64,000 bases of DNA from Prostheceraeus crozeri (lineage: Eukaryota; Platyhelminthes; Polycladida; Euryleptidae): the NCBI GenBank assembly GCA_907163375.1, contig CAJQUW010003044.1:62001-126000 (forward strand). The letters run 5' to 3'. A program made the translations under genes and the position numbers. Under the pieces are notes generated by a model. That model worked only from the letters and a program-made list of their open reading frames with translations. It did no database searches and had not been told where the DNA came from. This document shows, one piece after another, positions 661-62,128 of the stretch (positions within the stretch are counted from its first letter, which is position 1; each line of letters starts with the position of its first letter).

Positions 661-2148
661 AAAACTGTACAACTGCAAGCATTTAGGCCCTGCAATTTCA
701 TGTAGAATTTACCGTGAAATGAAAGTGTTGAGTGGGTCTATATCATGATATTTTTATCAGCATGAACACGAATGCATGTGCCGGTTTATATCTAATCTCT
801 GTTAGAATTTGTCAATTTTCTATTACTTGTATCCTTTACTAAAATGCCCATTGTAGCAAATTTGCTAGTCTCAAAAAACCCATTTTAGCAAATTTTCCAC
901 AGTCTCAAAAATCAATAAAATTAATACATTTTTAAAAACGCAGTTTTGAACATTGATTGTACATCTAAAATAGACCTGAACACATAATGAAAAAATTTTT
1001 CTGTGGAAGCTTTCATAGTGTGGGGATAATTAATAAAATCAGGTCTGTCAATTTACTTTTCACTCTTTGAATATTGATGCAGTCCGGTTTTCTGAATTCA
1101 TTATAGGCCTAATTGCACTAAATTATAGAGTGATCCTTTGCGGAGTATTTATTTGGACTTTTATTTGCGTAGACCCATCATAAACTTATGGGGTGCTGTA
1201 TGTGGACCTTATTTGAATTATCATTTAACAGCGTGCAGGTAATAAGTGCATGTACATTGCACTTGAATAGGAGGGTCCCTAACAAGTATTACATCTTGTC
1301 CCATCAATGCCTCAGCTATTTTCAAAAATTGCTGGCGGGCGTTCTGTGCGAGGCCGAGAATGATGCCACCATAATAATCAAATTGATCTCCTCTTTCTTC
1401 TGATCACAACTTTACCGGCTTTGGTTACAACTTTGACCAAAAACCGGTCAAAATCTGCGTTTAAACGAACATTTGGAGAAGATGGTTCAATTACCATATG
1501 ATTCCCCCATTCTGCTATTAAGTTCAAATCCAACGCTGGTTACAAGTCCTTGCCGAAAAACATTAGCAGTGACTTTTGGCCGCAGAAATGCAGGAAAGCG
1601 GAACAACTGAACAAAATGATCACAAATTTGGTTACGAATGTGTCACAGGACTCCCAATTTCGACAATTCCATATAAATAATTGCTTTGCCAAAGGCCATT
1701 GATGTCTAAGCAATCGATTTCAATACGAGTGGAAGTTGAGGTGAACTCTGTGATATCGCTATCAGTTCCAAGATCTTCATCAAAGGAGTGAATAATCAAC
1801 TGTCATGCAAGTTCCAAACAAGTTGTCAGTGCCTCGTCGAGCATCTCGTCTCGTAGCTTCAGGGCTTCAGGTTATGGACATCACGCCGACCGGCCGGTGA
1901 ATTTGCTGTAATTAGACCCACGTCGACCGTTGACGACATTCAGTTTAGAAGAAATTGCTTAGTCAATCATTACACCATTAAGAGCATGTAAATGCAACAT
2001 AATCTGACGGTATCTACGTGTATGCTTTGTGAAGTAGATAGTTCGAAATGGTCTTTAGACATCTAAAAAATGATTGCCAGCAACTTATACATGTAGTTCA
2101 AAACTTTAACCTCTGCCTTATCTCAAATGATATTTCCAGATTCATTAT
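661..2148. other. AT-rich non-coding stretch, no gene seen
   Basis: No open frame longer than about 70 codons with recognisable content. It holds the 3' flank of the piggyBac fragment, with an AATAAA near 914. A short direct repeat occurs around 845-895 (CCCATT followed by a GCAAATTT stretch). The segment ends at the target duplication of element A. Confidence 0.6.
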
Positions 2149-7361: not shown

Positions 7362-7535
7362 ATGAAGCAGATGTGTTGCTTGCCATGTAATGAGCCGCCA
7401 GAGGTGAATGTCGTTGTCACTTGCACTTGCTGCGCCAGCTCTCATAATGAAACCCCTAAGCAATGTGAACACGATCGCAAAACCGCTAAAGCTAAATGCT
7501 GCAGTTGTTGTAAATGTAGAAAGGCAAGAAAATAA
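7362..7535 (+). CDS. Small cysteine-rich protein, 57 residues
   Basis: An ATG two bases after the previous stop opens a frame of 58 codons including stop. It contains 12 cysteines, grouped as CC, CTCC and CCSCCKC with His between them, and a Lys/Arg-rich end. The spacing suggests a metal-binding cluster (zinc or metallothionein-like). It overlaps in another frame the N-terminal extension of the integrase frame, which has no early ATG. The gene ends 4 nt before the integrase ATG at 7540. Tight packing between two intact genes and the non-random cysteine pattern support coding. No homologue is visible in the window because the region is missing from B. Confidence 0.55.
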   Translation: MKQMCCLPCNEPPEVNVVVTCTCCASSHNETPKQCEHDRKTAKAKCCSCCKCRKARK

Positions 7536-7539
7536 AAAG

Positions 7540-8628
7540 ATGAGAAGGAGGAAAAAGAGTCAGTCGATCTCGACTGAACGTTTGAAGTCAATCTATTATG
7601 ATGTAAAACATCCGGCAGGATTTGCATCTATCAAGAAATTATCAAAAGCGAGTGGTCTTCCACAATCACAAGTGAAACGATGGTTAAAGGGTCAGGCTAC
7701 CTATACACTCCACAAACAAGCGAAAAAGAAATACCGCACCCGCCATTATATTGTTCATGACATCGATGAACAGTGGCAAGCAGATTTGTGTGATGTTGCC
7801 TCCATTTCAAAACATAACTCGGGCAATAATTTTATTTTAAACGTCATTGATATTTTCTCGCGTTATGCGTGGGCTCAACCTTTAAAAACTAAAGAAGGGA
7901 AAGGAGTAGCAAAAGCATTCCAAACAATTTTTCGAGAAGGTCGGATTCCAAAAAGAATTCAGAGTGATAAAGGAAAAGAGTTTGAAAATCAGCATGTGAG
8001 AAGATTATTTGAGAGGCATGACATTGAGTTGTTTAGTGTAAAGAGTGCTTATAAAGCTGCACTCGTTGAACGTTTTAATCGCAAATTAAAAAATCGCTTG
8101 TGGCGACATTTTACTGCCAACTTGACACAAAATTGGACAAAGGTTCTACAAGATACACTCCATGCCTACAATCACTCTATCCATCGTTCTATTGGACTCA
8201 GACCAGTAGATGTAAATGCTGACAATGTAGATAAAGTGCGCGAATCATTCCAACGTAAACGCACTCATGTGAAAAGTGATGTGAAAATTGGTGATAAAGT
8301 TCGTATCTCAAAAGTGAAAAGTGTTTTTGCTAAAGGGTACCTTCCGAATTGGACAGAGGAGGTATTTACAGTATCAAGGATTAATCAAAAAGACTCTCCG
8401 ACCACCTACAAGTTGAAAGGTTACGATAATGAAGAAATTGAGGGTAGCTTTTACCGCGATGAGATTGAGGTAGTCACTGAAAGTGAAACATATTTGGTAG
8501 AGAAAATCATTCGATGTAAAAAACGGCAAGGTGAAGAATGGTGTCTTGTTAAATGGACTGGTTATCCTTCAAGTATGAACTCTTGGATGCGTCGTGCCGA
8601 CAACTTTCATCTAAGTGATCGACAGTGA
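7540..8628 (+). CDS. Polinton retroviral-type integrase with chromodomain
   Basis: 362 residues from ATG 7540, chosen because the longer frame starts with TTG and would overlap the cysteine-rich gene. An N-terminal HTH-like region (GLPQSQVKRWLKG) is followed by a rve catalytic core with acidic residues in WQADLCD, QSDKGKEF and ALVERFNR (D,D,E). The C-terminus carries a chromodomain (YLVEKIIRCKK...WCLVKWTGY). This enzyme inserts the element and creates 6-bp duplications, as seen at both ends here. The frame is intact and all three catalytic residues are present. The chromodomain may guide insertion to particular chromatin. Confidence 0.92.
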   Translation: MRRRKKSQSISTERLKSIYYDVKHPAGFASIKKLSKASGLPQSQVKRWLKGQATYTLHKQAKKKYRTRHYIVHDIDEQWQADLCDVASISKHNSGNNFILNVIDIFSRYAWAQPLKTKEGKGVAKAFQTIFREGRIPKRIQSDKGKEFENQHVRRLFERHDIELFSVKSAYKAALVERFNRKLKNRLWRHFTANLTQNWTKVLQDTLHAYNHSIHRSIGLRPVDVNADNVDKVRESFQRKRTHVKSDVKIGDKVRISKVKSVFAKGYLPNWTEEVFTVSRINQKDSPTTYKLKGYDNEEIEGSFYRDEIEVVTESETYLVEKIIRCKKRQGEEWCLVKWTGYPSSMNSWMRRADNFHLSDRQ

Positions 8629-10537: not shown

Positions 10538-11083
10538 TTATTTTACAATCCGCTGGGTACGTACATACTCGATGAGATAGTCTAGGATCACATTTGCTTG
10601 TTCATGAGATTTTAGTCCAGTAATGATCACTTTACTATTATGAAAGATTGCCACATGCACAGGTAACCAACAACTAATAAGAGCTGCAGGAAAAAGTTCG
10701 GGTTCATAACACAAATTGTAACTGCTGGTACGAATCTTCAAAAATGATACACTTTCACTCAATTGAGTAGAGATCACTATATTGTCCACAGTCAGATTCG
10801 ACATCACACACCTCTCCCTCTTCCATATCCGACGTAGTAGTCTTTGTAGCTCTAAGCGCATTGACTGCGCCGATGAATGAGAAAGGGCGCCGAGAATCTG
10901 TACAGTCCCATTTGGGAAGAGTTGAAGATTCCGTGAATTGTTCATCTTCACCACTAACATTTGAGGTCGGCCCGGGTAATACTTGCTGTTTGGAAGGTGT
11001 TGGTGTAATGTTGTGAGATCGATTTTGGTGTAGAGTCTGAAGCGACGGAGAATGTTGACGATGGTGTAGCGATGGCGCTTCAC
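10538..11083 (-). CDS. Virus-encoded TATA-binding-protein-like protein
   Basis: About 181 residues read leftward. Two imperfect repeats are visible. Repeat 1 has IVNILRRFRLYTKIDL, then NSKYYPGRPQMLVVKM and LQLFPNGTVQILGA. Repeat 2 has CVMSNLTVDNIVIS, then YEPELFPAALISCWLP and VAIFHNSKVIITGLK. The saddle-domain signature of TBP (YEPELFP, then IF.SGK...TGAK) is clear. Element B has the homologue at 61628, beginning with ATG; here the equivalent codon is GTG (11083), so this copy may have lost its start or use a non-ATG start. It overlaps the end of the adjacent PC4-like gene in another frame. It could nucleate host polymerase II on viral promoters. Confidence 0.8.
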   Translation of the reverse strand: MKRHRYTIVNILRRFRLYTKIDLTTLHQHLPNSKYYPGRPQMLVVKMNNSRNLQLFPNGTVQILGALSHSSAQSMRLELQRLLRRIWKRERCVMSNLTVDNIVISTQLSESVSFLKIRTSSYNLCYEPELFPAALISCWLPVHVAIFHNSKVIITGLKSHEQANVILDYLIEYVRTQRIVK

Positions 11084-14956: not shown

Positions 14957-17900
14957 TTATGTCAATACATCTCCTGAATGTGGTAGCGTGAGTTTTATTC
15001 TTTTGGGTGGAGGTATGTTTGTGTCAGGATGTTCATGTGGAAGAGATGTGTTATGTCCTATCCAACACCTCTTATCCTCCCATGCTGAAAGCGCTCGTTT
15101 CTTGAACGTGCGCGTTTTCACAGTATGAACTTGAGATTTTAAGATTGTCATATTGACAAACGTTATAGTTTTATTTTTATAGGCCTTCTTATAGGACCGA
15201 TGTTTCATTTTGTGAACAATGGATTTTGATATACCTTTAGCACGCTTAATACTATCTGCACATTCTTTTAATTTCATGGAATACATTTTAGGACGGAGGA
15301 GAATCATTTCATCTATTTCCTTTCCTGCTGTTTCATCCTTAAAACAACCAAGTTTGGCTTTATTCTGTATGGAATAGAGTGGATGAGTGGGATTCTAGTT
15401 AGATGTGTCGAAATATTTTTCTAATGACTTGCCTACTTCATTAAAATTTAAATCTTTTTGAGTGGTAATTCCTAAAAAGAAACTATCTGTATCACCACCC
15501 AGCAGGCGAACCTCTTTTACGAGAGGGCATGGTTTTAATATTTTGTAGAAGAGTTGATACATTTCAAGCTTGGAATAATCTAAAACGGCTTGCCCAATAT
15601 AGATGGGTTTGCACAACTCAACTTCTGATTTAATCATTTTAACACCTACAAGATCCTCATCGATGATGTCTCTATCAATGAAAAGAGGTGATGAGGTCAA
15701 TTTGTGATATTTTTGTTCATCAACGACTAGTTTGTAGTTCATACGCTTTCTAACATCCTCCATGGTCTTTCCGAAAAGACTGTTATTCTTATATTTATAA
15801 AAATCCTTTTCAAAATTATTTTGGGCGAGTGCACGTTTTTGACTGTTACTACCTATGTAGGGTTTCAGGAAGGCTTTCTGTCTAAATTTGATAATGCGGT
15901 GAACTGACTTTAGAAGCATGCCCATTTCTAAATAGAATTTTAGTATGCAGAAGTGTACGAGATAATTTTTCTTATCATATTGGGTGAGTAAAAGTTTGCG
16001 GCATGGTTTGTACCTTGGCTGTCCACACTCTGTTAAGTTATTATGAAATTGTGACATGAATGGTGAAAACATATCTTCAGTCACTTCACCAGATTCAGGT
16101 GCGAGTGGGAAATCAGCAGTTTTATTTTTAATGCTATTTGGATAAATCAAATCCACTTCAAAATAATATCCCCAATCACCTTCATCTGGAATCTTCAGTA
16201 TGTTTGAAGGGTTGGAGTAATACTCAAGCTCATCTTGATTTAACCAACTAAACTCGGAATGAGGTAGTGGTTTAGACAGTGAACTGCCATATAAATTATT
16301 TTGGTCATAGTACTTTAGGTGGATATGATCATCACCTACTGTTTCAGATTTTATATGATGTTTATTTACAAATGTGAGACCACCGCGTATTCCGCGCTCA
16401 AATATATTATACATCTCCGGGTCTTGTAAGAGATGAATGGTCTCACCAGTCATTTTAAAGGCTGATTTAAAGGACATGGCTGGTAGACTGACAAAGTGGA
16501 CAGGATCTAATTTGCCTTCTTCTAATGCCACACGTCGAAATTCCTGAAAGACATCAGCCAGCAAAATGACATCTAATTCTAAGTAAGCGATCATATAATC
16601 GCCAAACGTTTTACAATCAAATTTTAACCATGCCTCTTGAGCATGTTCATAATCTTCTACTGGACAATGTTGACCCGTCAAATCGTTTTGGAATTTGTCA
16701 ATGGAAGGAAGGGTTGTTTCATTTAGTTTAGACATTGAGCTAAAATCCGCATAGGGAAAGACTCCTTTGCGAGTGATTATTTCATCCGTTAAGTTTGGAT
16801 AGTGTTTCTTCAAAGTTTGACTATGGGGAAGAAACTTGAGATTACGAACGAGAGAAGCTAGTGACGCTGACATGAATTGGAATGAATCTAAAAACTTTAT
16901 TTCGAAGAAGACTGTCTTATTTTCTTTAGTTTTATCTACTGGTACTTTTGCTGTCAATGCCATGAATTTTTCTCTCGTTTGCGCTATTACATTAAACTGC
17001 CACGATTTCATCTGGCTCAACCCTCCTTTTATGAGCATATGACTGTCATAGCCCTTAAAGTTATGAAAAATGACGGGTAGTACACGACGTCTCAACCTAA
17101 GTGAAAAGTTACATTTGGAGCAGAGTGCGTTTCTAAATTTACCAGTGATGTGATCATGATCACGCACTTTCTTAATTTTATCGTCATCAAACGTTTTATG
17201 ACATTTAGGACAGGATGTGCAACTTTCAAATTTTTGTTTGTCTTCATCTGACATATGTAGTGACTTACGCTGCAATTGGGAATCATATGATTGTTGAAAT
17301 TTAGCAGCTTTATCGAGAAATTCTAGAAATTTTGAAATGCAATCTTCACCTTGCCAAGTATGCATTTTGTTTTGTCTATTCCTAAAGTGGTCATGCCATA
17401 CTTCATAGCAGGATATGGCTGCTGGCTTGTGGATGATATCATCAATGTAGCATTCTATGTCTGCGTAAATGACACGTAGGGGACTTAATTCGTCACCATT
17501 ATCCCTATGTGAAAATATTTTATCTTTGGGCATGCGTTCCATTTGTAATTTACCTCGCTTGCACCATTCATAGTGAGTTTCAAATTTATCTTTAATCCAA
17601 AAGGAGCGGATGCAGCGGTCGCATACAAAATGTTCACCTCTTTTAGAGTGCCCCAAGTGAGTGTACAAGCGAGAGATTTTGGGTATACCACAGTAGTGCC
17701 ATTCCTCGCTATCATCTTGTTTTACTAATAAGAGGTTGACTACACGTTCATGACAAGTTGAACGTGAATTATAGCGGGCACCCTTCAACCCCTTCTCCCA
17801 CACGTGAACGACAATTTTAATCTTATTATGTTTTTCGAACGTTTCTACATCTTTGATTTTCATGTTGTTACTATCACAACCTTCAAAGTCTAGTTCATCC

Positions 17901-18757
17901 TCCCACTGTCTATAGCTATAGGTATGATTTCGATTCGCGTTGATATCATTATAGTGAAGGATGGATAGGACTGCATATTTGAAACACTGTGATTTACAAT
18001 CGACATTGATGACAGCTTTCTTATTATACAACGTTTTTGGTAGTTTAAATGTGCCTCGAGCTGCATGACTTTCTAATAGGGAAATTTTGAATATGGCTGA
18101 GTCCACACCATCAAAAATGAGAGCGCTGTCGCGTTGATTGAATTTATCTACATTTGATTTTAAACATTGAATGTGAAAATTTAGCCAAGACTCGCAGTCT
18201 ACAACCTCAGTTGCGGAAGAGGAAGGAACATGAAACTGTATTCTCTCCGTCACTTGAACCGTTTGAAAATCTATCTTAATATATTTTAGTTTGAGGTAGA
18301 TGAGCGCCTTCATTCTAAAATTGTCTAAATTGTTGAAGAGCGCTTCGATAATGTTAGAATTATGATGGAGCCACTCAGGAAAATCTACTATTTGAGTATT
18401 GGACTCCATGCAGTAGTCGCGTACTAAATTATTATGTGAAACATTAATGAGGGAGATGGTAGAGGTACCGTTGGTGTAGTGATCATTTGCATGCGTGTGT
18501 TGAAGTCTGTGCGAAGATCGCTGAAAGTGACTATCAAAAGAAAGAGGGCACAAATCGCAAGGAAAGGAGATGTCATCGTCAGAATCAACTTCACCTCCGG
18601 AGATTGACGCCGCTTTGCGTTGACACACACGTTGTTTGATGTGTCGAAGGAGACTGTGCTTCCTTGTAAACATATGTCCGCAGTCGGCACATTCCCACTC
18701 GTTGCCTTGTCGCGAGAGTCCTGAGCTGGAACTCACATCACCTGAAAGAGAAATCAT
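14957..18757 (-). pseudogene. Protein-primed family B DNA polymerase with zinc fingers, one premature stop
   Basis: About 1,266 codons including the interruption. N-terminal C2H2-type fingers occur at about 18,600-18,690 and 18,470-18,560, and another Cys/His cluster at 17,560-17,630. Exonuclease motif I is YADIECYID (about 17,455). An endonuclease VII-like Cys/His segment (CPKCHKTF...DHDHITGKFRNALCSKC) lies at 17,100-17,230. Next come motif II (NFKGYDSHML), motif III (YLELDVILLADVF), polymerase A (YYDQNNLYGSS), B (KNNSLFGKT) and C (GGDTDSFF, about 15,490). A TAG at 15395-15397 interrupts the last 146 codons, where element B has Tyr. I chose ATG 18757; the longer frame starts with TTG, and B's earlier ATG is lost here. 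It would replicate the linear genome by protein priming. Confidence 0.9.
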
Positions 18758-20310: not shown

Positions 20311-20677
20311 GAAGTGTGTTATGTTGCGTGTGGCGCGTGAGTGTCCTCCCATTTCATTCCATTCATCAATTCGTCTCATTGATAGAGACAGGTAGAACTC
20401 ATGGTTCTCATAACGTATGCAATGGAAAGTTTTAGGCAACCTTCGACAGTTGGCTAAATGTCGCCCTGGCGCGAATGCATACTACGTTGAGACAGAGGCA
20501 ATCACTTGCAAACATGACGCAGATAGGTTAAACAAGATTGACCATTGCCGAATATCCCTTGCGGTATACATAGCTACGGGTTTCACCGCCGCCCTTTACA
20601 GGAACGCCCGTCGAAAGGAAGTATTACACCGAACTTCATTTGCAACGTTCAAGTTGACTGATAGCAGATTCAACTTA
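20311..20677 (-). other. Conserved non-coding block of the early region
   Basis: On the minus strand this region resembles plus-strand 51240-51600 of element B: AACGTAG, CCATTGC..ACGTTAT, CCATGAGTTCT and GAAATGGGAGG..CACTC..GCGCCACACG occur in the same order. No frame is conserved between the two. A plus-strand open frame (20417-20830) is probably chance because it runs antisense through the ribozyme and early gene. Confidence 0.45.
20651..20676 (-). other. Hairpin downstream of ribozyme A1
   Basis: AAGTTGA and TCAACTT pair around a loop that can form a further CTG/CAG pairing. The same hairpin follows ribozymes A2 and A3, and B2. B1 has an unrelated sequence with an 8-bp stem at the same place (50727-50750). 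Confidence 0.5.
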
Positions 20678-20746
20678 ATGATAGTATTCGCCAGTCCGAA
20701 GACTGCCCAGGGCAAACCGCGAGGAGGTTCTATCATGTCTTGCCCC
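20678..20746 (-). ncRNA. HDV-like self-cleaving ribozyme A1
   Basis: 69 nt on the minus strand; cleavage is predicted between 20747 and 20746. P1: GGGGCAA pairs with UUGCCCU (G.U wobble at the cleavage pair). P2: AUGAUAG with CUAUCAU. P3: ACC with GGU, loop UCCUCGC. P1.1: CC in the loop with GG after P1. P4: CAGUC-UUCG-GACUG. J4/2: GGCGAAUA, supplying the catalytic C. The strand order and the loop and J4/2 sequences match the HDV ribozyme family. It lies after the stop of gene 20802-21059. Confidence 0.85.
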
Positions 20747-20751
20747 ATGGT

Positions 20752-20767
20752 GGCCCTTAAGAGAGCC
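20752..20767 (-). promoter_or_regulatory. Histone-mRNA-type 3' stem-loop A1
   Basis: GGCUCU-CUUA-AGGGCC followed by ACCAU on the minus strand. Six-bp stem with two G-C pairs at the base, pyrimidine-rich 5' arm, purine-rich 3' arm, four-base loop and ACCA flank: the metazoan histone 3' stem-loop pattern. The ribozyme cleavage site lies exactly 5 nt past the stem. Confidence 0.8.
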
Positions 20768-20801
20768 GATGGTTCGTTCTCGGGGTGTGAATTTAAGTTG
20801 A

Positions 20802-21059
20802 CTATTGGCTGGAATAGTCAATGGGTATGACGGTTAGGTTGTCATAGACCCTATACCGCCTAGGTCGTGCTGGTGAATCTGGCACCTTTCGGATGCGAGT
20901 GCTATTTGGAGTCCACACCCCATCCGTCCAAACGATCTTCTCGATCTTCCCCTTCTTATCATCCTCTTCATCCCACTCGTCAAGGATGATGGACTCGGGA
21001 ATGGCGTTGTCTTCATCGATGAAGACGGGAATGCTGTTGGCAGGAGACGTTGCTTCCAT
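20802..21059 (-). CDS. Small early protein, conserved in both elements (early gene 3)
   Basis: 85 residues from an ATG. Acidic N-terminal half (DEDNAIPESIILDEWDEEDDKKG), then a conserved core IVWTDGVWTPNSTRIRKVPD, RPRRYRVYDNL and an end PIDYSSQ. Element B has an intact homologue at 52181-52420 and an inverted broken copy at 51766-52017. No family recognised. A weak TATA-like CCTATATC lies about 40 bp upstream. Its transcript would end in the histone-type stem-loop and ribozyme A1. Function unknown; the acidic half plus basic core would suit protein-protein contacts. Confidence 0.65.
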   Translation of the reverse strand: MEATSPANSIPVFIDEDNAIPESIILDEWDEEDDKKGKIEKIVWTDGVWTPNSTRIRKVPDSPARPRRYRVYDNLTVIPIDYSSQ

Positions 21060-21206
21060 CGTGACTTGAAATTGAATGAGAAGCGCTACACTCTTCTGGC
21101 TGATATAGGGTTTTCAACAATGAATTGCTCAACAGCGAATCAGAATGCTTCAGGGATAGCAATCGACTGCATAACGTTCAAATTGACTGATAGCAGATTC
21201 AACTTA

Positions 21207-21275
21207 ATGATAGTATTCGCCAGTCCGAAGACTGCCCAGGGCAAACTGCGTGGAGGTTCTATCATGTCTTGCCCC
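21207..21275 (-). ncRNA. HDV-like self-cleaving ribozyme A2
   Basis: Same layout as A1 with cleavage between 21276 and 21275. P1, P2, P4 and J4/2 are unchanged. P3 is weakened: the 3' arm is AGU instead of GGU, giving one C.A mismatch, and the loop is UCCACGC. It may be slower or inactive. It follows early gene 2 (21326-21592). Confidence 0.75.
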
Positions 21276-21280
21276 ATGGT

Positions 21281-21296
21281 GGCCCTTAAGAGAGCC
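21281..21296 (-). promoter_or_regulatory. Histone-mRNA-type 3' stem-loop A2
   Basis: Identical to A1 (GGCUCU-CUUA-AGGGCC, then ACCAU), ending exactly 5 nt before the predicted cleavage site of ribozyme A2. Confidence 0.8.
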
Positions 21297-21325
21297 GGTG
21301 GTTCGTTCTCGGGAGTAACGTCATC

Positions 21326-21592
21326 TTACACCGTACCAATTCTGCTGAGAGAGTCTTTGACTCTCTCTTTGGTAGCAGTGTCGACTTCCACACTAACTGG
21401 CACATGGCTAAAAAGTGGAATGTAGCGCCATTCTGTTGGATTGACAACAGTTGCTGTCATCGGATTGCCAATCCGAGCAAGATTATTGTGGACTCTGTCT
21501 TGCTCCTCTAGCCTGACAAACTCCTCAAATAAATTTCGCGGCCTTAACTGCGGTCCGCGAGGAGAGCTGACTTGACTGTTCGGCGTCTGCAT
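21326..21592 (-). CDS. Small early protein (early gene 2)
   Basis: 88 residues from ATG 21592. I rejected the 16-17 codon upstream extension because a TATA box lies inside it. The core LRPRNLFEEFVRLEEQDRVHNNLARIG is conserved with the gene at 50805-51071 in element B, as are WRYIPL and the ending SLSRIG. It is helical, charged and soluble-looking, without a recognised family. It is flanked upstream by a strong TATA box and downstream by a histone-type stem-loop and ribozyme A2. Confidence 0.65.
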   Translation of the reverse strand: MQTPNSQVSSPRGPQLRPRNLFEEFVRLEEQDRVHNNLARIGNPMTATVVNPTEWRYIPLFSHVPVSVEVDTATKERVKDSLSRIGTV

Positions 21593-21623
21593 GATTGAAA
21601 TGAAATGAAATGAGAGGCAGTGG

Positions 21624-21631
21624 TTTATATA
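21624..21631 (-). promoter_or_regulatory. TATA box of early gene 2
   Basis: TATATAAA on the minus strand, 32 bp before the ATG at 21592, so the leader would be only a few nucleotides. Element B has TATTAAA at 50761-50767 in the same position, 38 bp before its ATG. Confidence 0.65.
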
Positions 21632-21682
21632 CCCCTCTAACACGATGCAACGTTCAAGTTGACTGATAGCAGATTCAACTTA

Positions 21683-21751
21683 ATGATAGTATTCGCCAGT
21701 CCGAAGACTGCCCAGGGCAAACCGCGTGGAGGTTCTATCATGTCTTGCCCC
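21683..21751 (-). ncRNA. HDV-like self-cleaving ribozyme A3
   Basis: Cleavage predicted between 21752 and 21751. P1 GGGGCAA/UUGCCCU, P2 AUGAUAG/CUAUCAU, P3 ACC/GGU with loop UCCACGC, P4 CAGUC-UUCG-GACUG, J4/2 GGCGAAUA. All required elements are present. It lies in the 3' part of the coiled-coil gene transcript, after its last intron. Confidence 0.85.
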
Positions 21752-21756
21752 TAGGT

Positions 21757-21772
21757 GGCCCTTAAGAGAGCC
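21757..21772 (-). promoter_or_regulatory. Histone-mRNA-type 3' stem-loop A3
   Basis: GGCUCU-CUUA-AGGGCC followed by ACCUA (rather than ACCAU). Again 5 nt separate the stem from the ribozyme cleavage site. Confidence 0.75.
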
Positions 21773-21824
21773 GATGGTTCGTTCTCGGGAGTGAATTGAT
21801 GGGGTGGTGAAGGCGGGCAAAGAT

Positions 21825-21888: not shown

Positions 21889-23067
21889 TTAGCCATCCTT
21901 TGGCAGTCTCGCGCGCTTCCGAATAGAGAATTTGTGGAGATGGCCGCGCATTCTCAGGCTGGCATGTAGGCATTTTTTCGTCGGATGGCCGTTATAACAA
22001 ATGATGGACTCGTCTAGATTTTGATTCACGAGTACTTCGCTGGCCAAATGATTATCCCGAATAGGGATGTGAAACTCAAACAACCTATCCTCATTCACAC
22101 GATTCCACTCATCCCTCATGCGCTCCAACTTCTCATACGCCTGCCTCTCATTACCCCGCCGAGCCACAGTCCTCTCCAACTCAACATTCCTCGCTCTCAA
22201 CACACTCATCTCCTCCATCATCTCCTCAAACTTCGCTTCTGCATCTCTCATTCTTCTCTCCGCAGCACTCGCCCTCTTCTCACACTCATCATTCTTCTCT
22301 TCCAACTCTCGCGTCTTATTCTTGAAGTCAGTAACACTACGCCTCATTCAAATATTCTCATCCGCTACCTCCTTCAACTTCAGTTCCTTCTTTTTCAACT
22401 CATCCAACTCCTTCACAACTTCATCCTTCACCTCCTTCAAACTCTCATACTTATTCACCAACAAATCATGCGCCATCTGCTGCGATACATGCCTCTTCTC
22501 TTCATCCTTCAAGTACCTCGCCGACTGCTTACGTATCCCACCACTCTTCACTTTTGGGGAAGATGAGCTCTTCGGGGGGTCGGTGATGACAATGTTCGAC
22601 ACCTCCGACGACGAAGAGCTCAACTTCCTCACACGCTTCCTCACACGCTCCCTATCTAAATCCACATCATCCTCATCATCACTCTCAAGCACTCTCTTTC
22701 GTCCAATCTCAGCCTCCAACGACGCAACTGCTCTCGCCAACTCATCATTCTCAACAACATTCTCAACAACATTCTCAACCTTACCCTCTCGCTCTATCGC
22801 CAACATTCACTCCCTCTCTTCCACAATCAACTGCGTGAATCGCAAGTCATTCACCAAACCTCCATTACAGTCAGCATGCACTCTGTAAAAACGCGCCTCA
22901 TCCTCATCACCCTTTAACACTCTACACTTCACACACGCAACCCTATTCGGGATAATCATGTGGTCGGTGCCCGCCTTCTTGACATGAGGCTTGGCGTCCG
23001 CACTGCGATTTATTCGCCCACAGGTACACATTTTAATATGGAATTTACGGTTTTTATCGTTAGCCAT
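21889..23067 (-). CDS. Early coiled-coil protein with N-terminal Cys/His cluster, two in-frame TGA codons
   Basis: One frame of about 390 codons interrupted by TGA at 22807-22809 and 22348-22350, each immediately followed by ATG. Segment 1 (86 residues) has CTCGRI, CVKC and H..C, possibly a zinc site. Segment 2 (152) is acidic then a Lys/Glu-rich coiled coil. Segment 3 (152) continues the coiled coil and ends basic (HKFSIRKRARLPKDG). Element B's homologue (49455-50601) is continuous across the first position. The stops may be decay, readthrough or stop-restart translation. The transcript has a 5' intron and ends in stem-loop and ribozyme A3. Plus-strand frames here are shadows. Confidence 0.6.
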
Positions 23068-23086: not shown

Positions 23087-23648
23087 CTGTAAGATAATGA
23101 AATTTGTGTAAGTATGGAATCATGTAGTACAGTCATATTCCTAAAGCATAACACTTAGTGAGGAATGATAGATTTGAGTATAGTGAGTGGCACTCGATCC
23201 CGTCGACAGCCCGAAGGCCTTGTACTGATCACTAGGAAAGTGAGAGATCTTCCCCGATACCCGCTCTTTACAGCTGAAGACATCATTGTCACTGCCCCGA
23301 AGTGGTAACAGCAACGTTGAGTCAAAGGTAGTGATCAGTAGCTGGGATCTAACCCCTCAAAGCTGCCTTAGACTTAGTTAAATTTCAAATCTGATAGCAG
23401 ATTTGAACTCACCATACTTGAAAACCTTAGTCTACATGTTAAAACTTTGAAAAAACTGAAAATTAAGAATTTTTAAAAAATTCCGCATTTTACTACTCAT
23501 ACTACTTTAAAAAAATTTATCAGTAGTAAAGACACTATCAAACTCTATCACACAAACTCTGAAGTAAGAAGATAGCATGCCTACTTCAAAAGATAGAGTC
23601 CTTTGAAACACCCGATATCGGGAGCTCAGAGCGACGACCGTCGCTTAC
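23087..23648 (-). other. 5'-UTR intron of the coiled-coil gene
   Basis: Donor AG|GTAAGC (23648 downward), acceptor TTATCTTACAG ending at 23087, 20 nt before the ATG at 23067. The 562-nt intron parallels the 619-nt one in element B. Inside, ACTGATCACTA (23224-23234) and its complement TAGTGATCAGT (23329-23339) could form an 11-bp stem. A second donor, CGTAAGT near 23677, is possible. No coding content seen. Confidence 0.6.
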
Positions 23649-49454: not shown

Positions 49455-50601
49455 ATGACTAAAATGATAAATGCGCGTATGCTCATCGGCAAGTGTAGCC
49501 TTGGCCGTATTGCCAGAGGCAGCGAGTTAAAGAAAGACATCAATGAGGGGACGGTGGGCGAGCATGTGAGGAAAGTGTTGCTGAGGGTGTGTGTGCATCA
49601 TAAGGTAGTATGTAAGGATGGGAGTGATGTGGAGTTCATTAGGAACCATAGCCAGTGCCCTAGTGGCAATATTAGTATGCAGGGGTTTAAGTCGTGGTTT
49701 GAGGGAGTTTTGTTAGATATGGAAGAGGTAAGAGTGGCAGTGGCGACGATTGAGGGTGCGGTGGGGAAGAAAGGTGTTACCAAGGCGACTGATGAGGGTT
49801 TGAGTGAGGAAGAAGTGGAGTTGAAAGGGGACATCAAGAAGCCTGATGTTGATGTTGATTTGGATGACGTGTTGGAGGAATTGTTTGGGAACATTGGTGA
49901 TCTTGAAGAGAAGGGGAAGGATGAGGGAAAGGAAGTGGGTAAGCCGTTGGCGGCATCATCACTTCGGAGGGAGGAAAGGAAAACGAGGGATGAATATGTA
50001 AGGATGAAGGATCGATTGAGGGCGGTTGAGGAGAAGAATAAAGTACTAGTGGTGCGGAATGAGAAGTTGACTGCGAAGGCTGAAGGGTATAAGGTGACGA
50101 CAGAAGAGTTGGAAAGTATGAGGCAGAAGGAGAAAGAGTGGATGGTGGAAAGGAGTGAGCTGATGAAGAAAGCAAGTTTGGTGAGCAATCTGCAGGCGAA
50201 TTTGTGAGAAAGGATGATGAAATGGATCGGATGCGAAGCGTGGTGAAGGAGACAGGGAAAGTGAAGGGTGTGAACAAGAGGTTGGTGGCTGCACTAGAGC
50301 GATTGCATGAGCGTGAGAAGTGTAGAAAAAGAAGAGTGTATGAAGTCCATCTTCCCCTCTTCGAAAATAATGTGTGCGACGCCCCAACAATCACAAGTGA
50401 CCGCAATCAGACGCAGCAATGCTACGAGGGCGACGGAGTCCGATGTCAGCACATGAACATGGACATTACCGGCGAGCTTGAGGACTTCGTCGTCCGAAAA
50501 GTCCGGAAGAAAGTTCCCAGTAAGTTACTTCAACATGATCATTTCCCTACCGCATCTAATCTCCTATTCTTTTTCTTTCAGAGTTTTTACATCACCAGTA
50601 G
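49455..50601 (+). pseudogene. Early coiled-coil protein, element B, spliced and frameshifted once
   Basis: Frame 1 (from ATG 49455) has an N-terminal Cys/His region (VCVHHKVVCKD, HSQCPSG), then an acidic part and a long Lys/Glu-rich coiled coil. It ends at 50207; the sequence continues in another frame from about 50204, so one frameshift is present. Coding then runs to 50519, where GTAAGT begins a 62-nt intron (50520-50581, acceptor TTTCTTTCAG), and stops at TAG 50599-50601. It matches the minus-strand gene 21889-23067. Function unknown. Confidence 0.6.
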
Positions 50602-50632
50602 GATCGCTTTTGATCCCGAGAACGCCCCAAAC

Positions 50633-50648
50633 GGCTCTTTTAAAAGCC
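50633..50648 (+). promoter_or_regulatory. Histone-mRNA-type 3' stem-loop B1
   Basis: GGCUCU-UUUA-AAAGCC followed by ACAC, then the predicted cleavage site 4 nt past the stem. One C.A mismatch in the stem; loop UUUA fits the histone consensus. Confidence 0.75.
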
Positions 50649-50652
50649 ACAC

Positions 50653-50720
50653 GGAGCAAGAGTGATAGTACCTCCTCGTGGTTTGCTCTGGACAGACTTC
50701 TGTCTGACTGAATCTATCAC
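50653..50720 (+). ncRNA. HDV-like self-cleaving ribozyme B1
   Basis: 68 nt, cleavage before G50653. P1 GGAGCAA/UUGCUCU, P2 GUGAUAG/CUAUCAC, P3 ACC/GGU with loop UCCUCGU, P1.1 CC/GG, P4 CAGAC-UUCU-GUCUG, J4/2 ACUGAAU. Compared with A1 and B2, P1 (G-C to A-U), P2 (A-U to G-C) and P4 (U-A to A-U) carry paired changes that keep the helices. It lies in the 3' UTR of the coiled-coil gene. Confidence 0.88.
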
Positions 50721-50726
50721 ATAATT

Positions 50727-50750
50727 AGAAAGACTGAGTCATGTCTTTCT
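50727..50750 (+). other. Hairpin downstream of ribozyme B1
   Basis: AGAAAGAC pairs with GTCTTTCT around an 8-base loop. Different sequence but same position as the AAGTTGA/TCAACTT hairpin downstream of the other ribozymes. Confidence 0.5.
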
Positions 50751-50760
50751 ATAAGAGGGG

Positions 50761-50767
50761 TATTAAA
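50761..50767 (+). promoter_or_regulatory. TATA-like box of early gene 2, element B
   Basis: TATTAAA preceded by GAGGGG, 38 bp before ATG 50805; the flanks (GGGGTAT..AAACCA.TGCCTCTC) match the element A promoter at 21616-21636. Confidence 0.55.
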
Positions 50768-50804: not shown

Positions 50805-51071
50805 ATGAAAACACCTAAGACGACAGTCAGCTCTCCTGACAAGCCTCGGCTTCGACCGAGAAAATTATTTATTGAGTTTCTAGAGATGGAAGAGCGAGAG
50901 CGAGTCTATAACAATCTTGCTCGAATTGGCTCATCAACAACTGACGATGATGCCAATTCAACAGGGTGGGGGTATATACCGCTCTCTAACAGTCAGCTTA
51001 TATTAGAGGAGGTCGATGCCGCTGACATAGAGAGATTACAAGTCTCTCTCAGCGAAATCGGCCAAACCTAA
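50805..51071 (+). CDS. Small early protein (early gene 2), element B
   Basis: 88 residues, intact, homologous to 21326-21592 with LRPRKLFIEFLEMEERERVYNNLARIG, YIPL and a LSEIG end. Charged and helical with no recognised family. The transcript has a TATA-like box upstream and the second histone-type stem-loop plus ribozyme (B2) downstream. Conservation of the frame in two diverged elements argues it is expressed and selected. Confidence 0.7.
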   Translation: MKTPKTTVSSPDKPRLRPRKLFIEFLEMEERERVYNNLARIGSSTTDDDANSTGWGYIPLSNSQLILEEVDAADIERLQVSLSEIGQT

Positions 51072-51100
51072 GTCTATTCATTTCCCGAGAACGAACCAAC

Positions 51101-51116
51101 GGTCTTTTTAAAGACC
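51101..51116 (+). promoter_or_regulatory. Histone-mRNA-type 3' stem-loop B2
   Basis: GGUCUU-UUUA-AAGACC followed by ACCAU: a fully paired six-bp stem with a canonical UUUA loop and ACCA flank. The ribozyme cleavage site is 5 nt past the stem. Compared with A, the third to fifth pairs differ in a compensated way. Confidence 0.88.
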
Positions 51117-51121
51117 ACCAT

Positions 51122-51190
51122 GGGGCAAAATATGATAGTACCTCCACGTGGTTTGCCCTGGACAGACTTCGGTCTGACTGAATCTATCAT
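51122..51190 (+). ncRNA. HDV-like self-cleaving ribozyme B2
   Basis: 69 nt, cleavage before G51122. P1 GGGGCAA/UUGCCCU, P2 AUGAUAG/CUAUCAU, P3 ACC/GGU with loop UCCACGU, P1.1 CC/GG, P4 CAGAC-UUCG-GUCUG, J4/2 ACUGAAU. All strands occur in HDV order. A run of AATAAA-like sequence follows at 51191-51208, and then the AAGTTG/CAACTT hairpin (51214-51239). Confidence 0.88.
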
Positions 51191-51239
51191 AAAAATAAAA
51201 AAATAAAATCACAAAGTTGTATCTGCTATCAGTCAACTT

Positions 51240-51690
51240 AAACGTTGCATGTTAAGGAGGATTTCGGTATAATTCTTCCTGTTGGTGGGCGATCTTTCTT
51301 GAGACAGGGGATGATATCGTAGTGATAAGTGTGGCAAGGTAGTGTGTCATATTTTAGACCGAAACCTCTGGGGCAACTCATGTGGGGCATTTGACACAGT
51401 TCTCAACGTAGCACTTTGAACGCCAATCGGTTGAGTCTTAGGAATCTGCCACAGGTTACTTTTTAAATTCTCCATTGCGAACGTTATCTGAGAATGAGCC
51501 ATGAGTTCTTTTAAGAACTGCCTCTATCACTGAGGCTAAATGATGAAGGGATGAAATGGGAGGCTACTCTTGCGCCACACGTATACAAAATCACTTTCTA
51601 TCTTCTCTAATGGTGCGATCTCTTTTGATAGAAAAGTAGACCGATAATAAATGTGTTAACTAACCCCATATCTAAATTCCTCCATTTATT
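51240..51690 (+). other. Conserved non-coding block, element B
   Basis: Counterpart of 20311-20640 (minus). It holds AACGTAG, CCATTGCGAACGTTAT and an AGTTCT-UUUA-AGAACT hairpin near 51512-51527. No ribozyme follows that hairpin. No open frame conserved. Confidence 0.4.
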
Positions 51691-51765: not shown

Positions 51766-52017
51766 TTATAGCGAGGAAAAGTCAAGTGGAAGAACCTTTA
51801 AGTCATTGTAGACTTTGTAGCACCTTGGTCGTTTTGGGGCATCTGGCGCTCTTCTCATCCGCGTTGTTTTTGGTGTAAAATCACCATTACTCCACACAAC
51901 TTGCACAATCTTGCCTTTATCACAAGTCTCCTTCTGATCGCACTCTTCATCTTACTCGTCGACCACTTCAAAGATTTTGTTGAAGATCTCTAAGGCGGGA
52001 GATGTACCTTCCATCAT
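51766..52017 (-). pseudogene. Early gene 3 copy, inverted arm, one stop
   Basis: Starts with ATG ATG at 52017 and has an in-frame TAA near codon 26, then continues to the end with FTPKTTRMRRAPDAPKRPRCYKVYNDLKVLPLDFSS. Nearly identical at the C-terminus to the gene at 52181, so the duplication is fairly recent. A CATATAAAAG box lies upstream on the minus strand (about 52055-52066). Confidence 0.65.
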
Positions 52018-52180: not shown

Positions 52181-52420
52181 ATGACAAACTCAGAAACACC
52201 ATGTAATTTTGTGATCGTCAATGAGTGGTGTGATGAAGACAAGTGTGATCAGAAAGAGACTTGCGAAAAAGGCAAGACTGTAAGAATTGTCTGGATAGAT
52301 GAAGAGTGGACACCAAAAACAACGCGCGTGAGAAGAGCGCCCGATGCCCCTAAACGTCCAGGGTGTTACAAAGTCTACAATGACTTAAAGGTTCTTCCGC
52401 TTGACTTTTCCTCGATATAA
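52181..52420 (+). CDS. Small early protein (early gene 3), element B
   Basis: 79 residues, intact, homologous to 20802-21059: IVWIDEEWTPKTTRVRRAPD, RPGCYKVYNDL and an end LPLDFSS are shared. The N-terminal half is acidic with three Cys (CDEDKCDQKETC) not present in A. No stem-loop or ribozyme follows in this copy. Function unknown. Confidence 0.65.
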   Translation: MTNSETPCNFVIVNEWCDEDKCDQKETCEKGKTVRIVWIDEEWTPKTTRVRRAPDAPKRPGCYKVYNDLKVLPLDFSSI

Positions 52421-53175: not shown

Positions 53176-56100
53176 ATGACTTCAATAGAGATGACAATGA
53201 TTTCTCCTCCAGATGATGACAGTTCCAACTCAAGTGCGCAGTCGCGGGAAGCATCTAAAACATGTGCTGATTGTGGGCATATCTTTACGAGGAAGTCCGA
53301 TCTCACCCGACACATCAGACAACGTGTGTGCCAACCCAAACCATCATCAATCTCCCGAGGTGAGGATGATTCTATTCAACATGTCTCCTTTACTTGTGAC
53401 TTTTGTTTCCAATCTTTTGAAACAGGTTTTGAATTATCTTCACATAGACTTCACCACACACACACACACACAAATGATAGTTATAGCAACAGCACCTCCT
53501 CTATTCGACTAACTGAAGTATCAATAATGTAGTGAGAAATTACCATATGGAGTCCTCAGAAACTATTGCTGATTTTCCGGAGTGGTTCCATCAAAATTCA
53601 TTGACAGATGCGCTCTTTCGCAATTTAGAGCAGTTTAGAATAAAAGCGCTCATCTGCCTTAAAATAAAATATGTTAAAGTTGATTATCATACCGGTGAAA
53701 TAGTACAGAGGTTGGTGCTTTACATACCTCCTCTCCTGCTACAGAGGTAGTCGATAAAGAAGCTTGATTAAATTTTCACATCCAAGGACTAAAATCAAAT
53801 ATTCATAAATTTAACGAGCGCGATAGTGGTCTAATTTTTGATGGCATAGAATCTACCAAGTTTAAAATTACTCTATTAGAAAATTACCGTGGTCGAGGCT
53901 CCTTCAATCTTCCGAAAACGTTAAGTGCTAAAAATGCAGTCATTTCTGTTGATTGTGAATCACAGTGTTTTAAGTGTGCGGTATTATCTATTCTCCACTA
54001 TCATGATGTACAGAACAACCGTTTCCGTAGAAGCAAATATCATGAATGGGAGAATTAATTGAAGTTTGATGACTGCAATAGCGAAGACATGAAGTTTGAA
54101 GATATAGAGAAATTTGAAAAATGAAATGAAATTAAAAGTTGTTCACATCTGGCAAGAGGGGCTTAAGGGTGTGCGCTACAACAACCGTTCATCAACTTAT
54201 GATCGGGTAGTCAATCTCCTGCTAGTATATCAAAATGATAGTGAAAATTGGCATTACTGTGGTATTCCTAAAATGACTCGACTATATTCCCACTTAACAT
54301 CTAGAAGAAGAGAGTATTTCATATGTGACCGTTGTATGCGCCCCTTCTGGTCAAAAGATAAATTTGAAACACATTATGAATGGTGTAAGCGAGGTAAACT
54401 GCAAATAGAATGCATGCCCAAAGATAAAGAGTTTTCACATAGAGAGAAAGATGATGAATTTAGTCCTCTTCGTGTCATCTATGCTGACATCGAATGCTAT
54501 ATTGATGATAACACCCATAAAGCGGCAGCCATATCATGTTATGAGGTATGGCATGACTACTTCAAAAATAAAAATGATAAAATGCACGTCTGGGAAGGTG
54601 AGGATTGTATACATAAATTCCTACAATTCCTCGAAAGCGCTGTCAAATTTCAGCAAAAATATGATAGTGAACTCCAACGCAGATCATTGAATATGTCAGC
54701 AGATGATCAAGTAAAATTTGAAAGTTGTAAAGTCTGGCCAAAATGTAATAAAACGTTTGATGAAGATAAAATCAAGAAAGTGCGCGACCATGATCACATC
54801 ACTGGTAAATTTAGAAACGCGCTATGTACAAGATGAAAATTTTCAGTGAGACTGAAGTGGCGTACTCTACCCGTTATTTTTTATAACTTCAAAGGTTATG
54901 ACAGTCATATGATAATATAAGGGGGGGTTAGGAAAAATGAAAGAGTGGAAGTTAAGTGTAATAGCTCAAACAAGAGAAAAGCTCATGGCCATGACAGCAA
55001 AAGTAGCAGTTGACAAAACTGAAGAAAATAAGATAGTTTATTTTGATATAAAATTTTTAGATTCCTATCAATTCATGGCTTCATCACTAGCATCTCTCGT
55101 TCAAAATCTTAAGTCTCTTCCACTAACTCAAAATTTGAAGAAACAATATTCTAGCTTGACGGATGAAGTCATCACACGCAGAGGAGTGTTTCCATATGCA
55201 TACTTTGATAACATTTCTAAACTTAGTGAGACTTCTCTTCCATCAATAGACAAATTTAAAAATGATTTGACTGGTGTAGAATGCAAGGTAGAAGACTACA
55301 ATCATGTTCAAGTTGCATGGACAAAATTTAACTTTCAAACGTTTAGCGATTATATGATCGCCTATCTAAAATTAGATGTATTTTTGCTGGCTGATGTATT
55401 TCAGGAGTTTCGACGAGTGGCATTGGAAGAAGATAAATTAGATCCTGTTCACTTTGTCAGTCTTCCAGCCATGTCATTCCAGTCTGCCTTCAAAATGACT
55501 GGAGATACCATCCATCTTTTGCAAGATCCAGAGATGTATAATTTATTTGAATGAGAAATTCGCGGTGGTCTCACATTTGTAAATAGGCATCAAATAAAAT
55601 CAAAAATAGTAGATGATGATCAGATTCATCTTAAGTACTATGACCAGAATAGTTTATATGGTAGTTCACTGTCCAAACCTCTACCTCACTCTGAGTTTAG
55701 CTGGTTGGGTGATAATGAAATTCAGCATTTCTGCAACCCTTCAAACATACTAACTATTCCAGATAATGGTGATTGGGATATTATTTTGAGATAGATCTTA
55801 TCTATCCAAATAGTATTAAAAATAAAACTGTGGATTTTCCGCTTGCACCCGAATCAGGCGAAGTGACTGAAGATATGTTTTCGGACTTTATGAAACAATT
55901 TCATTAAGATTTAGAAGGGAGCGGACAGCCCAAGTATAGGCCTTGCCGTAAACTTTTCTTACTCAATTTGATAAAGAAAATTATTTAGTCCACTTCTCTA
56001 TCTTAAAATTTTATTTAGAGATGGGGATGATTTTAAAAACAGTTCACCGCATTATCAAATTTGGACAGAGAGCTTTTCTGAAACCTTATATTGATAGTAG

Positions 56101-61302: not shown

Positions 61303-61956
61303 ATGAAGACTTGGAAATTGGATTTCCTACAATATGTTGAGATTGATCATGAACGAAACGTATGTTTCAATGATTATACTGGAAATGTACGAAGAGTATT
61401 TGCTTTATCATATCGACATTTTCAATCTCTACATCATATCATGAAGGATTTGAAATACTTCTATATGAAGAAACACTCACGCATAGGAAATCGCATATGG
61501 TTGCGACTCAACAAACAGCGAATTCAAATCTATCATTCACACCTTTCTACCTACTTCACATTTCATCAAGGCAGTTGGGAAAATTATAAAAGGAAGATAC
61601 ATCGCTCTATTTACTCATTTCTTCATCATGAAACGTCATCGCTACACCATCGTCAACATTCTCCGACGCATCAGACTCTACACGAAAATCGATCTCGCAA
61701 CATTACATCAACAAATTCCAAACAGCAAGTATTATCCGGATCGACCGCAAATGTTAGTGGTGAAGATGAGCAATTTACGAAATCTTCAACTCTTCCCAAA
61801 TGGAACTGTTCAGATACTCGGCGCCCTTTCTCATTCATCAGCGCGGTTAATGCGCTTAGAGCTGCAGAAACTACTACGACGGATATGGAAGAGGGAGAAG
61901 TGTGTGATGTCGAATCTGACTGTGGACAATATGGTGATCTCTACTCAATTGAGTGA
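61303..61956 (+). CDS. PC4-like protein with acidic tail, element B
   Basis: 217 residues from ATG 61303; the longer frame starts with GTG. Homologous over the full length to 10755-11405, including the acidic end MEEGEVCDVESDCGQYGDLYSIE. The last 329 nt overlap the TBP-like frame. Intact in both elements. Confidence 0.65.
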   Translation: MKTWKLDFLQYVEIDHERNVCFNDYTGNVRRVFALSYRHFQSLHHIMKDLKYFYMKKHSRIGNRIWLRLNKQRIQIYHSHLSTYFTFHQGSWENYKRKIHRSIYSFLHHETSSLHHRQHSPTHQTLHENRSRNITSTNSKQQVLSGSTANVSGEDEQFTKSSTLPKWNCSDTRRPFSFISAVNALRAAETTTTDMEEGEVCDVESDCGQYGDLYSIE

Positions 61957-62128
61957 AGATGTATCGTTTTTAAAGATTCATACCAGCAGTTTCAATTTGT
62001 GTTATGAACCAGAACTTTTTCCCGCGGCTCTCATTAGTTGCTGGTTACCTGTACATGTTGCAATCTTTCATAATAGTAAAGTTATCGTTACTGGAATGAA
62101 ATCTGAATGCAAGCAGATACGATCCTAG
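61628..62128 (+). pseudogene. TATA-binding-protein-like protein, element B, frameshifted at the C-terminus
   Basis: Begins ATG (KRHRYTIVNIL) and shows the two TBP-like repeats: KIDLATLHQQIPNSKYYPDRP with LQLFPNGTVQILGA, then CYEPELFPAALISCWLP with VAIFHNSKVIVTG. A small deletion near 62100 changes the last 15-20 residues and ends the frame early, removing the end of repeat 2. Start and fold elements agree with 10538-11083, confirming it as a viral gene present before the two elements diverged. Confidence 0.8.

Follow-up and report, generated by a model that had tools for sequence, protein, structure and literature searches.

Ribozymes of the hepatitis delta virus (HDV) type (Rfam RF00094 and RF02682; R2 and other retrotransposons) leave a cyclic phosphate on cleavage, and histone mRNAs end 4–5 nucleotides (nt) past the stem of their 3′ stem-loop (RF00032). 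Some of the HDV-like ribozymes described process viral RNA units. Others process the 5′ ends of retrotransposons, according to the available part of PMC3774820. A 64,000-nt stretch of Prostheceraeus crozeri DNA (assembly GCA_907163375.1, contig CAJQUW010003044.1, positions 62,001–126,000; here called the window) carries two Polinton transposons, A and B, in which a histone-type stem-loop and an HDV-like fold are joined in a single module. Judged from the sequences, both halves of the module, stem-loop and ribozyme fold, are real and covarying. The module is probably a histone 3′ signal combined with a ribozyme, with which a transcript would cut itself and leave a poly(A)-free 3′ end of the type bound by SLBP. 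This is the best available reading, and it is drawn from sequence.

With HDV-like ribozymes the modules share the nested double pseudoknot order, a 7-base pair (bp) P1 helix with a G·U pair at the cut site, a 3-bp P3, a 7-nt L3 loop of the form UCCNCGY, a CC/GG P1.1 and a catalytic cytosine in J4/2. The lengths of P1 and P2 fall within the range for such ribozymes given in the available part of PMC4908430. The modules differ in their site, after the stop codons of DNA transposon genes, and in the predicted histone-like 3′ end; relative to the Rfam HDV models, J1.1/4 is shortened by 3 nt. With the histone 3′ stem-loop they share a 6-bp GG..CC stem, a 4-nt loop and an ACC 3′ flank, but they are not on a histone gene and are directly joined to a ribozyme. 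Laboratory RNAs in which an HDV ribozyme is fused to a histone stem-loop end for a precise 3′ end, as described in the available part of PMC12775136, match the modules in purpose and in how the parts are ordered, but these are engineered and in vitro. Among the matches listed in the open-access PMC literature (subscription papers being outside the scope) there are laboratory constructs only and no natural union of stem-loop and HDV-like ribozyme, and the matches listed for Polinton/Maverick transposons include no ribozyme or histone-type 3′ end. An earlier reading of the window, made from the sequence only, knew of no described system that joins the two; the laboratory fusion is one, and no natural one is among the matches listed. 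The parts are of known kinds and their natural union as an mRNA 3′-end system appears new.

Element A carries three modules of 107 nt on the minus strand, each consisting of a 10-nt box CCCGAGAACG, 7 nt, a histone-type stem-loop, 5 nt and an HDV-like double pseudoknot, in 5′ to 3′ order. Module A1 is at 21683..21789 (box 21780–21789, stem-loop 21757–21772, tail ACCUA, ribozyme 21683–21751, predicted cut 21752/21751). A2 follows an 88 amino acid (aa) gene and is at 21207..21313 (stem-loop 21281–21296, ribozyme 21207–21275); A3 follows an 85-aa gene and is at 20678..20784 (stem-loop 20752–20767, ribozyme 20678–20746). The three minus-strand modules and their stem-loop-to-ribozyme span, 20678–21772, are exactly as the sequence-only reading had them, and the sequence also bears out its 6-bp stem (GGCUCU/AGGGCC), four-base loop (CUUA), 5-nt tail (ACCAU in two copies, ACCUA in one), P1 beginning exactly 5 nt past the stem, and HDV strand order. 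Its L3 sequence, UCCUCGC, is that of the copy at 20678 alone; L3 is UCCACGC in the remaining two, and GGG follows. The remaining parts in A are P1 GGGGCAA/UUGCCCU with a G·U wobble as first pair, J1/2 GAC, P2 AUGAUAG/CUAUCAU, P3 ACC/GGU (with a C-A mismatch in A2), P4 CAGUC-UUCG-GACUG and J4/2 GCGAAUA. The same reading placed the modules after three genes, putatively 'early' ones, which are small and consecutive. The stem begins 29 nt (A2) and 34 nt (A3) after the gene in two cases, as compared with 27 nt in the host histone H3 gene. In the first gene 116 nt separate the end of the open frame from the stem, and by eye about 60 nt of these look like an intron.

Three things go beyond that reading: the upstream box, a genome-wide module family, and two modules in element B. 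B1 is at 50615..50720 on the plus strand (stem-loop 50633–50648 with one C-A mismatch, tail ACAC, ribozyme 50653–50720) and B2 at 51084..51190, also plus (stem-loop 51101–51116, which has the full histone consensus, and ribozyme 51122–51190). All five window modules contain every helix in the order P1-P2-P3-P1′-P4-P2′. The A modules are 96–97% identical to each other, and A2 and B2 are 81% identical. Weak, degenerate module-like stretches are also found at 20340–20410 (minus) and 51487..51592 (plus). Only the latter is matched by a covariance model of the module (19.4 bits, E = 5e-4); it has a 6-bp hairpin by eye and no clear ribozyme. A hairpin follows both stretches, and by eye one compensatory pair in it differs between A and B.

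The HDV topology by itself often arises by chance: 60 first-order Markov windows gave 103 matches and the real window gave 6, among them one (51709, minus) that lacks the L3 core. When either the L3 core or an upstream histone-consensus stem-loop is added to the topology, there are 0 matches in the 60 randomised windows and 5 in the real one, and the five window modules have both. In a MAFFT alignment of the five modules, 148 of the 150 cells in 30 named pairs are paired (98.7%). Of the five two-sided pair changes, two lie in the stem-loop, and P1, P2 and P4 have one apiece. Among five pairing measures, four exceed 500 of 500 shuffles, and slid registers give 0–2 two-sided pairs, a control that leans towards the structure since the structure was read from the same five sequences. 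In the fifth measure, the number of further pair types (7), 296 of 500 shuffles are as high. An alignment of 13 sequences in which MAFFT shifted one stem-loop by a column was left out of the pair counts. Chance or simple hairpins are ruled out by the randomised windows together with the covariation. Coding on the opposite strand (two plus-strand frames run through A2 and A3) is rejected, as B1 has one inserted and two missing nt and the changes are compensatory. Whole-unit folding energy was dropped as evidence; by a method that ignores pseudoknots, four whole units have z-scores between −0.09 and −1.27, which is unremarkable.

A search of the 2.05-Gb assembly containing the window with the Rfam histone stem-loop model (Histone3) gave at least 52 matches (75 of 295389 candidates scored), 9 of the 52 above the cutoff, and 51 loci covering all 52 were retrieved. 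Modules are carried by six (L029–L034) of the first eight loci. The module covariance model, run on the window and the 51 loci at E ≤ 0.05, gave 135 matches, of which 95 above 70 bits were kept and 40 (15–27 bits) dropped. The 95 modules comprise 5 in the window and 90 in 47 loci; the four of 51 loci with none are L072, which has a histone H3 gene, L035, L036 and L079. Paired cells number 542/552 in the stem-loop (three D modules left out), 611/659 in P1, 630/665 in P2, 268/280 in P3, 450/475 in P4 and 169/188 in P1.1. The catalytic J4/2 cytosine is kept in 92/95, the first P1 pair is G·U at the cleavage site in 90/95, and L3 is of the UCCNCGY type in 82/95; these figures are inflated by the picking of loci with the stem-loop model and of modules at >70 bits. 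A split control separates the 48 modules that were themselves Histone3 matches (stem-loop 288/288 paired) from 39 neighbour modules that were not (stem-loop 225/234, ribozyme pairs 94.3%). The neighbours also needed >70 bits, yet only 4 of the 47 loci are without one. The arrangement of module, homolog of the 88-aa gene (gene 2) and module is found in 43 of the 47 loci.

Viral contigs yielded 0 loci with polymerase B alone, with the ribozyme-core pattern or with the integrase, and one distant locus with a polymerase B alignment. A pattern of stem-loop plus GGAGG gave 18 stretches there, none with a ribozyme by eye, and box plus stem-loop gave 4 matches, the best of which scores 10.4 bits with the module model. 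Genome contigs gave three distant polymerase B loci. In the first 22 loci the module model found nothing above 11.2 bits.

The modules can be compared with a histone gene of the host. The H3 gene in L072, the sole intact histone gene found, has the 3′ untranslated region GUGAACGCGAAAAC-GGCCCU-CUUA-AGGGCC-ACAAAC, in which GUGAACG lies 13 nt past the stop codon and the stem 27 nt past it. Its loop is CUUA as in element A, and 15 of 16 letters are identical to the A stem-loop. GTGAACG occurs within about 40 nt of the stop in 4 of 9 histone genes examined (H3 L072, H4 L092, H4 L093 and H2B L096), as compared with an expectation of 0.002 per 60 nt taken from the retrieved loci themselves; the motif was picked in the same data, and the count is post hoc. 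Letters 4–9 of the module box read GAGAAC in 74, ATGAAC in 8 and GTGAAC in 3 of the 95 modules, most of them one letter off the host word. In sequence the modules seem to resemble host histone 3′ untranslated regions beyond the hairpin itself. In L090–L096, no intact stem-loop lies behind the seven copies of H4 or the single copy of H2B, and several copies look degenerate; L097 showed no histone frame in a scan. The sample of histone genes is small, and 52 of the 60 H4-family matches lie outside it. The host also encodes an SLBP_RNA_bind domain in two pieces on one contig (52.7 and 32.9 bits), of which the weaker has a TGA within the frame that matches. From this we infer that a host histone 3′ signal may have been captured or mimicked.

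Histone-type stem-loops without a module are also present elsewhere. At about 1950–2050 (minus) of L079, a stem-loop with a GTGAACG box and CUUA loop, and no ribozyme seen, lies beside non-histone frames; this is perhaps another element that uses the histone 3′ signal alone. L035 and L036 have stem-loops at about 1250–1310 (minus) that score 38.2 and 36.6 bits, above Rfam's cutoff for the histone model, and no histone frame of ≥80 aa is near them.

These likenesses bear on whether the host does the processing. The box and stem-loop, which resemble the host histone gene, could be handled by the host SLBP/U7/CPSF73 pathway, with the ribozyme as a fail-safe or cutting only transcripts that escape. 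The host SLBP domain is present, in the C subfamilies the stem-loops are perfect and the ribozymes next to them carry mismatches, and CAAGA in P1/J1-2 of the A modules and B1 could serve as a histone downstream element. This word is absent from B2, which by eye has CAAAA. The ribozyme core, moreover, is kept in most modules and covaries, and in the A and B modules of the window the predicted cut always falls 4–5 nt past the stem. Host processing appears unlikely as the explanation of the module.

Under self-cleavage by the module, a sequence of steps can be proposed. A Polinton would carry a likeness of the host histone 3′ signal, that is, a GUGAAC-like box and an SLBP-type stem-loop, and RNA polymerase II would transcribe the gene together with the module. 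The ribozyme would then fold and cut 5′ of P1, which is 5 nt past the stem in A1–A3 and B2 and 4 nt in B1. Like a histone mRNA, the resulting mRNA would keep the stem-loop at its very end; unlike one, it would carry a cyclic phosphate there, and this end could be bound by host SLBP. The gene may thereby gain an exportable, translatable mRNA of the S-phase type with neither U7 cleavage nor poly(A). We infer the catalysis, the cut site, the SLBP binding and the benefit. It may be speculated that the cyclic phosphate resists 3′hExo trimming and uridylation. The downstream RNA, having a 5′-OH, should not feed XRN2, unlike the product of U7 cleavage, and therefore termination must come from elsewhere. 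In the available part of PMC4744033, a reporter ended by a hammerhead ribozyme is untranslated until a templated poly(A) is added. A ribozyme end therefore needs a substitute tail, and the stem-loop can be that.

A second hairpin follows each of the five window ribozymes and is a candidate terminator. Just 3′ of A1–A3 and B2 it contains CUGCUAUCAG (21646–21685, 21170–21209 and 20641–20680, minus; 51205–51246, plus), and a different hairpin is found 3′ of B1 (50721–50766, plus). The folding z-scores are −1.27 to −2.54, a modest stability. In sequence, CUAUCA of the CUGCUAUCAG hairpin repeats the 3′ strand of P2, and the hairpin may be a competitor for P2 or a terminator. CUGCUAUCAG is found at 20658–20667, 21187–21196, 21663–21672 and 23391–23400 (minus) and 51223–51232 (plus); the site at 23391–23400 stands alone. 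These hairpins, and the TATA-like elements of adjacent genes that by eye flank the modules, would also be expected if the ribozyme insulates packed genes between neighbouring TATA promoters while the stem-loop caps the RNA against exonucleases independently of SLBP. A mere cap, however, needs no histone sequence, CUUA/UUUA loop or GUGAAC-like box, and insulation of this kind is rather improbable.

Several observations weigh against the reading as a histone 3′ signal with a self-cutting ribozyme, and the fifth pairing measure, the leaning of the slide control and the inflated conservation given above belong with them. The covariance-model check proposed in the sequence-only reading gives no match at Rfam gathering thresholds for the window's module copies; A is matched below the cutoffs and B by Histone3 only. 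HDV_ribozyme (RF00094) gives 27.5/24.8/19.7 bits on A against a cutoff of 50 (E-value thresholds, 1.7 kb), and HDV-F-prausnitzii gives 26.8/26.5 bits on two A copies against 44. With the whole window as target and 4227 Rfam families, the HDV matches have E-values of 0.7 and 6.9. Histone3 scores 18.9/18.6/18.1 bits on A, 30.4 on B2 and 22.8 on B1 (cutoff 34). No Rfam HDV family reports a B module up to E = 10, and confidence in the reading is slightly reduced because of this. SLBP prefers adenines just 5′ of the stem (PMC10388802, available part), and these are not kept in A, which has UC or CC. The joined stem-loop and ribozyme design is not among the constructs in the available part of PMC4744033. 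The third gene of element B (52181–52420, plus) has no module after it; an inverted duplication (51766–51951 / 52235–52420) around this gene coincides with the absence. The proposal of self-cut histone-like ends in the earlier reading is partly supported: it gains from the covariation of both halves, the genome-wide recurrence, the host SLBP-type domain and the host H3 match with its similar upstream box, and loses from AATAAA after B2 at 51194 (4 nt on) and 51202, where polyadenylation may occur. AATAAA/ATTAAA is absent within 200 nt of the three A module genes (3/3), but among the other A frames it is present in 10/17 and absent in 7/17, so that the absence at the three genes is a weak point in favour of the proposal.

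The state of the genomic copies counts the same way. Near-complete ribozymes (≥21/22 pairs plus core) are found in only 42 of 87 genomic modules, and 45 are damaged. P1 is whole in 3/3 A, 23/37 B1, 24/33 B2, 0/8 C1, 2/11 C2 and 1/3 D modules, with a P1 mismatch in 8/8 C1 and 9/11 C2. Full P1.1 is absent in 8/11 C2 modules (whole in 3/11), and the D modules have by eye a shortened 15-nt stem-loop. Between B and C, module identity is 0.78–0.88, as compared with 0.80–0.81 for gene 2 and 0.86–0.87 for the 120 nt downstream; the modules of B and C thus show no conservation beyond that of gene 2 or the flanks. The frame between modules is open for exactly 88 codons in only 16 of 43 cases, the others being longer, shorter or broken. 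This damage, together with the near identity of the A copies, could mean that the modules are relics, inherited inactive copies kept alike by recombination among repeats of the element. Compensatory changes are present in four helices, however, and the A modules compared with other subfamilies (0.68–0.81) are conserved above gene 2 (0.62–0.67), the promoter (0.58–0.64) and the flanks (0.43–0.58). Relics are a quite improbable explanation, and damaged copies may be expected for a transposon family with many dead copies.

If the module works as a histone 3′ signal with a self-cutting ribozyme, animal mRNAs would have a natural third route to a 3′ end, in addition to poly(A) cleavage and the U7-dependent processing of histone mRNAs. 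HDV-like ribozymes would have a defined job outside retrotransposon 5′ processing and satellite RNA replication. It would also mean that a mobile element copies the host histone 3′ signal down to the unusual loop and perhaps the upstream box, and would point to a link between S phase and the expression of Polinton genes. The proposal is directly testable with a 107-nt RNA. More tentatively, and with somewhat less than even confidence, we suggest that mRNAs of this Polinton family mimic host histone mRNAs and cut themselves to give SLBP-bound, poly(A)-free, cyclic-phosphate ends that are U7-independent and possibly protected from trimming. Together with a TATA-binding-protein-like gene, both ends of transcription would then be partly self-supplied and tuned to S phase.

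Element A shares with Polinton/Maverick transposons an rve-chromodomain integrase, a polymerase B homolog and inverted repeats near both ends, and element B is a second, inverted Polinton in the same window. The integrase of A (rve plus chromodomain, Pfam) is at 7408..8628 (plus). A frame with an endonuclease VII domain at 15395..18757 (minus; Pfam and homologs) is taken as polymerase B on the strength of its 1159 homologs, several of which carry DNA_pol_B_2. In B, a DNA_pol_B_2 fragment at 54937–55554 has E = 2.4e-4, which is below the cutoff. A check for a double jelly-roll capsid, penton and protease showed frames of 465 and 516 aa that match nothing in Pfam and, below E 0.05, nothing in PHROG, and a match to an A32-like ATPase is weak (E = 0.005).

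The 88-aa gene, with a transcript that would end in A2, is at 21326..21592 (minus), and its homolog in B is at 50805–51071 (plus). Between A and B, gene 2 has nonsynonymous (dN) and synonymous (dS) divergences of 0.39 and 1.12, which denotes purifying selection, and yet identity between the A2 and B2 modules reaches the 81% given above, a point in favour of the self-cutting reading. The 85-aa gene, with a transcript that would end in A3, is at 20802..21059 (minus), and its B homolog is the third gene given above. Upstream of A1 a coiled-coil-like frame at 21889..22347 (minus) shows weak Pfam matches below the cutoff. The A frames at 21889–23067 (minus) are three in one reading frame, split by TGA directly followed by ATG, and by eye the element B counterpart of the first part is a single 250-aa frame at 49455–50207 (plus). 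TATA-binding-protein-like genes are present in both Polintons, at 61628–62128 (plus) and 10538–10960 (minus), with Pfam TBP E-values of 8e-19 and 4.9e-13, and the protein has 60 homologs on public contigs of up to 20 kb.

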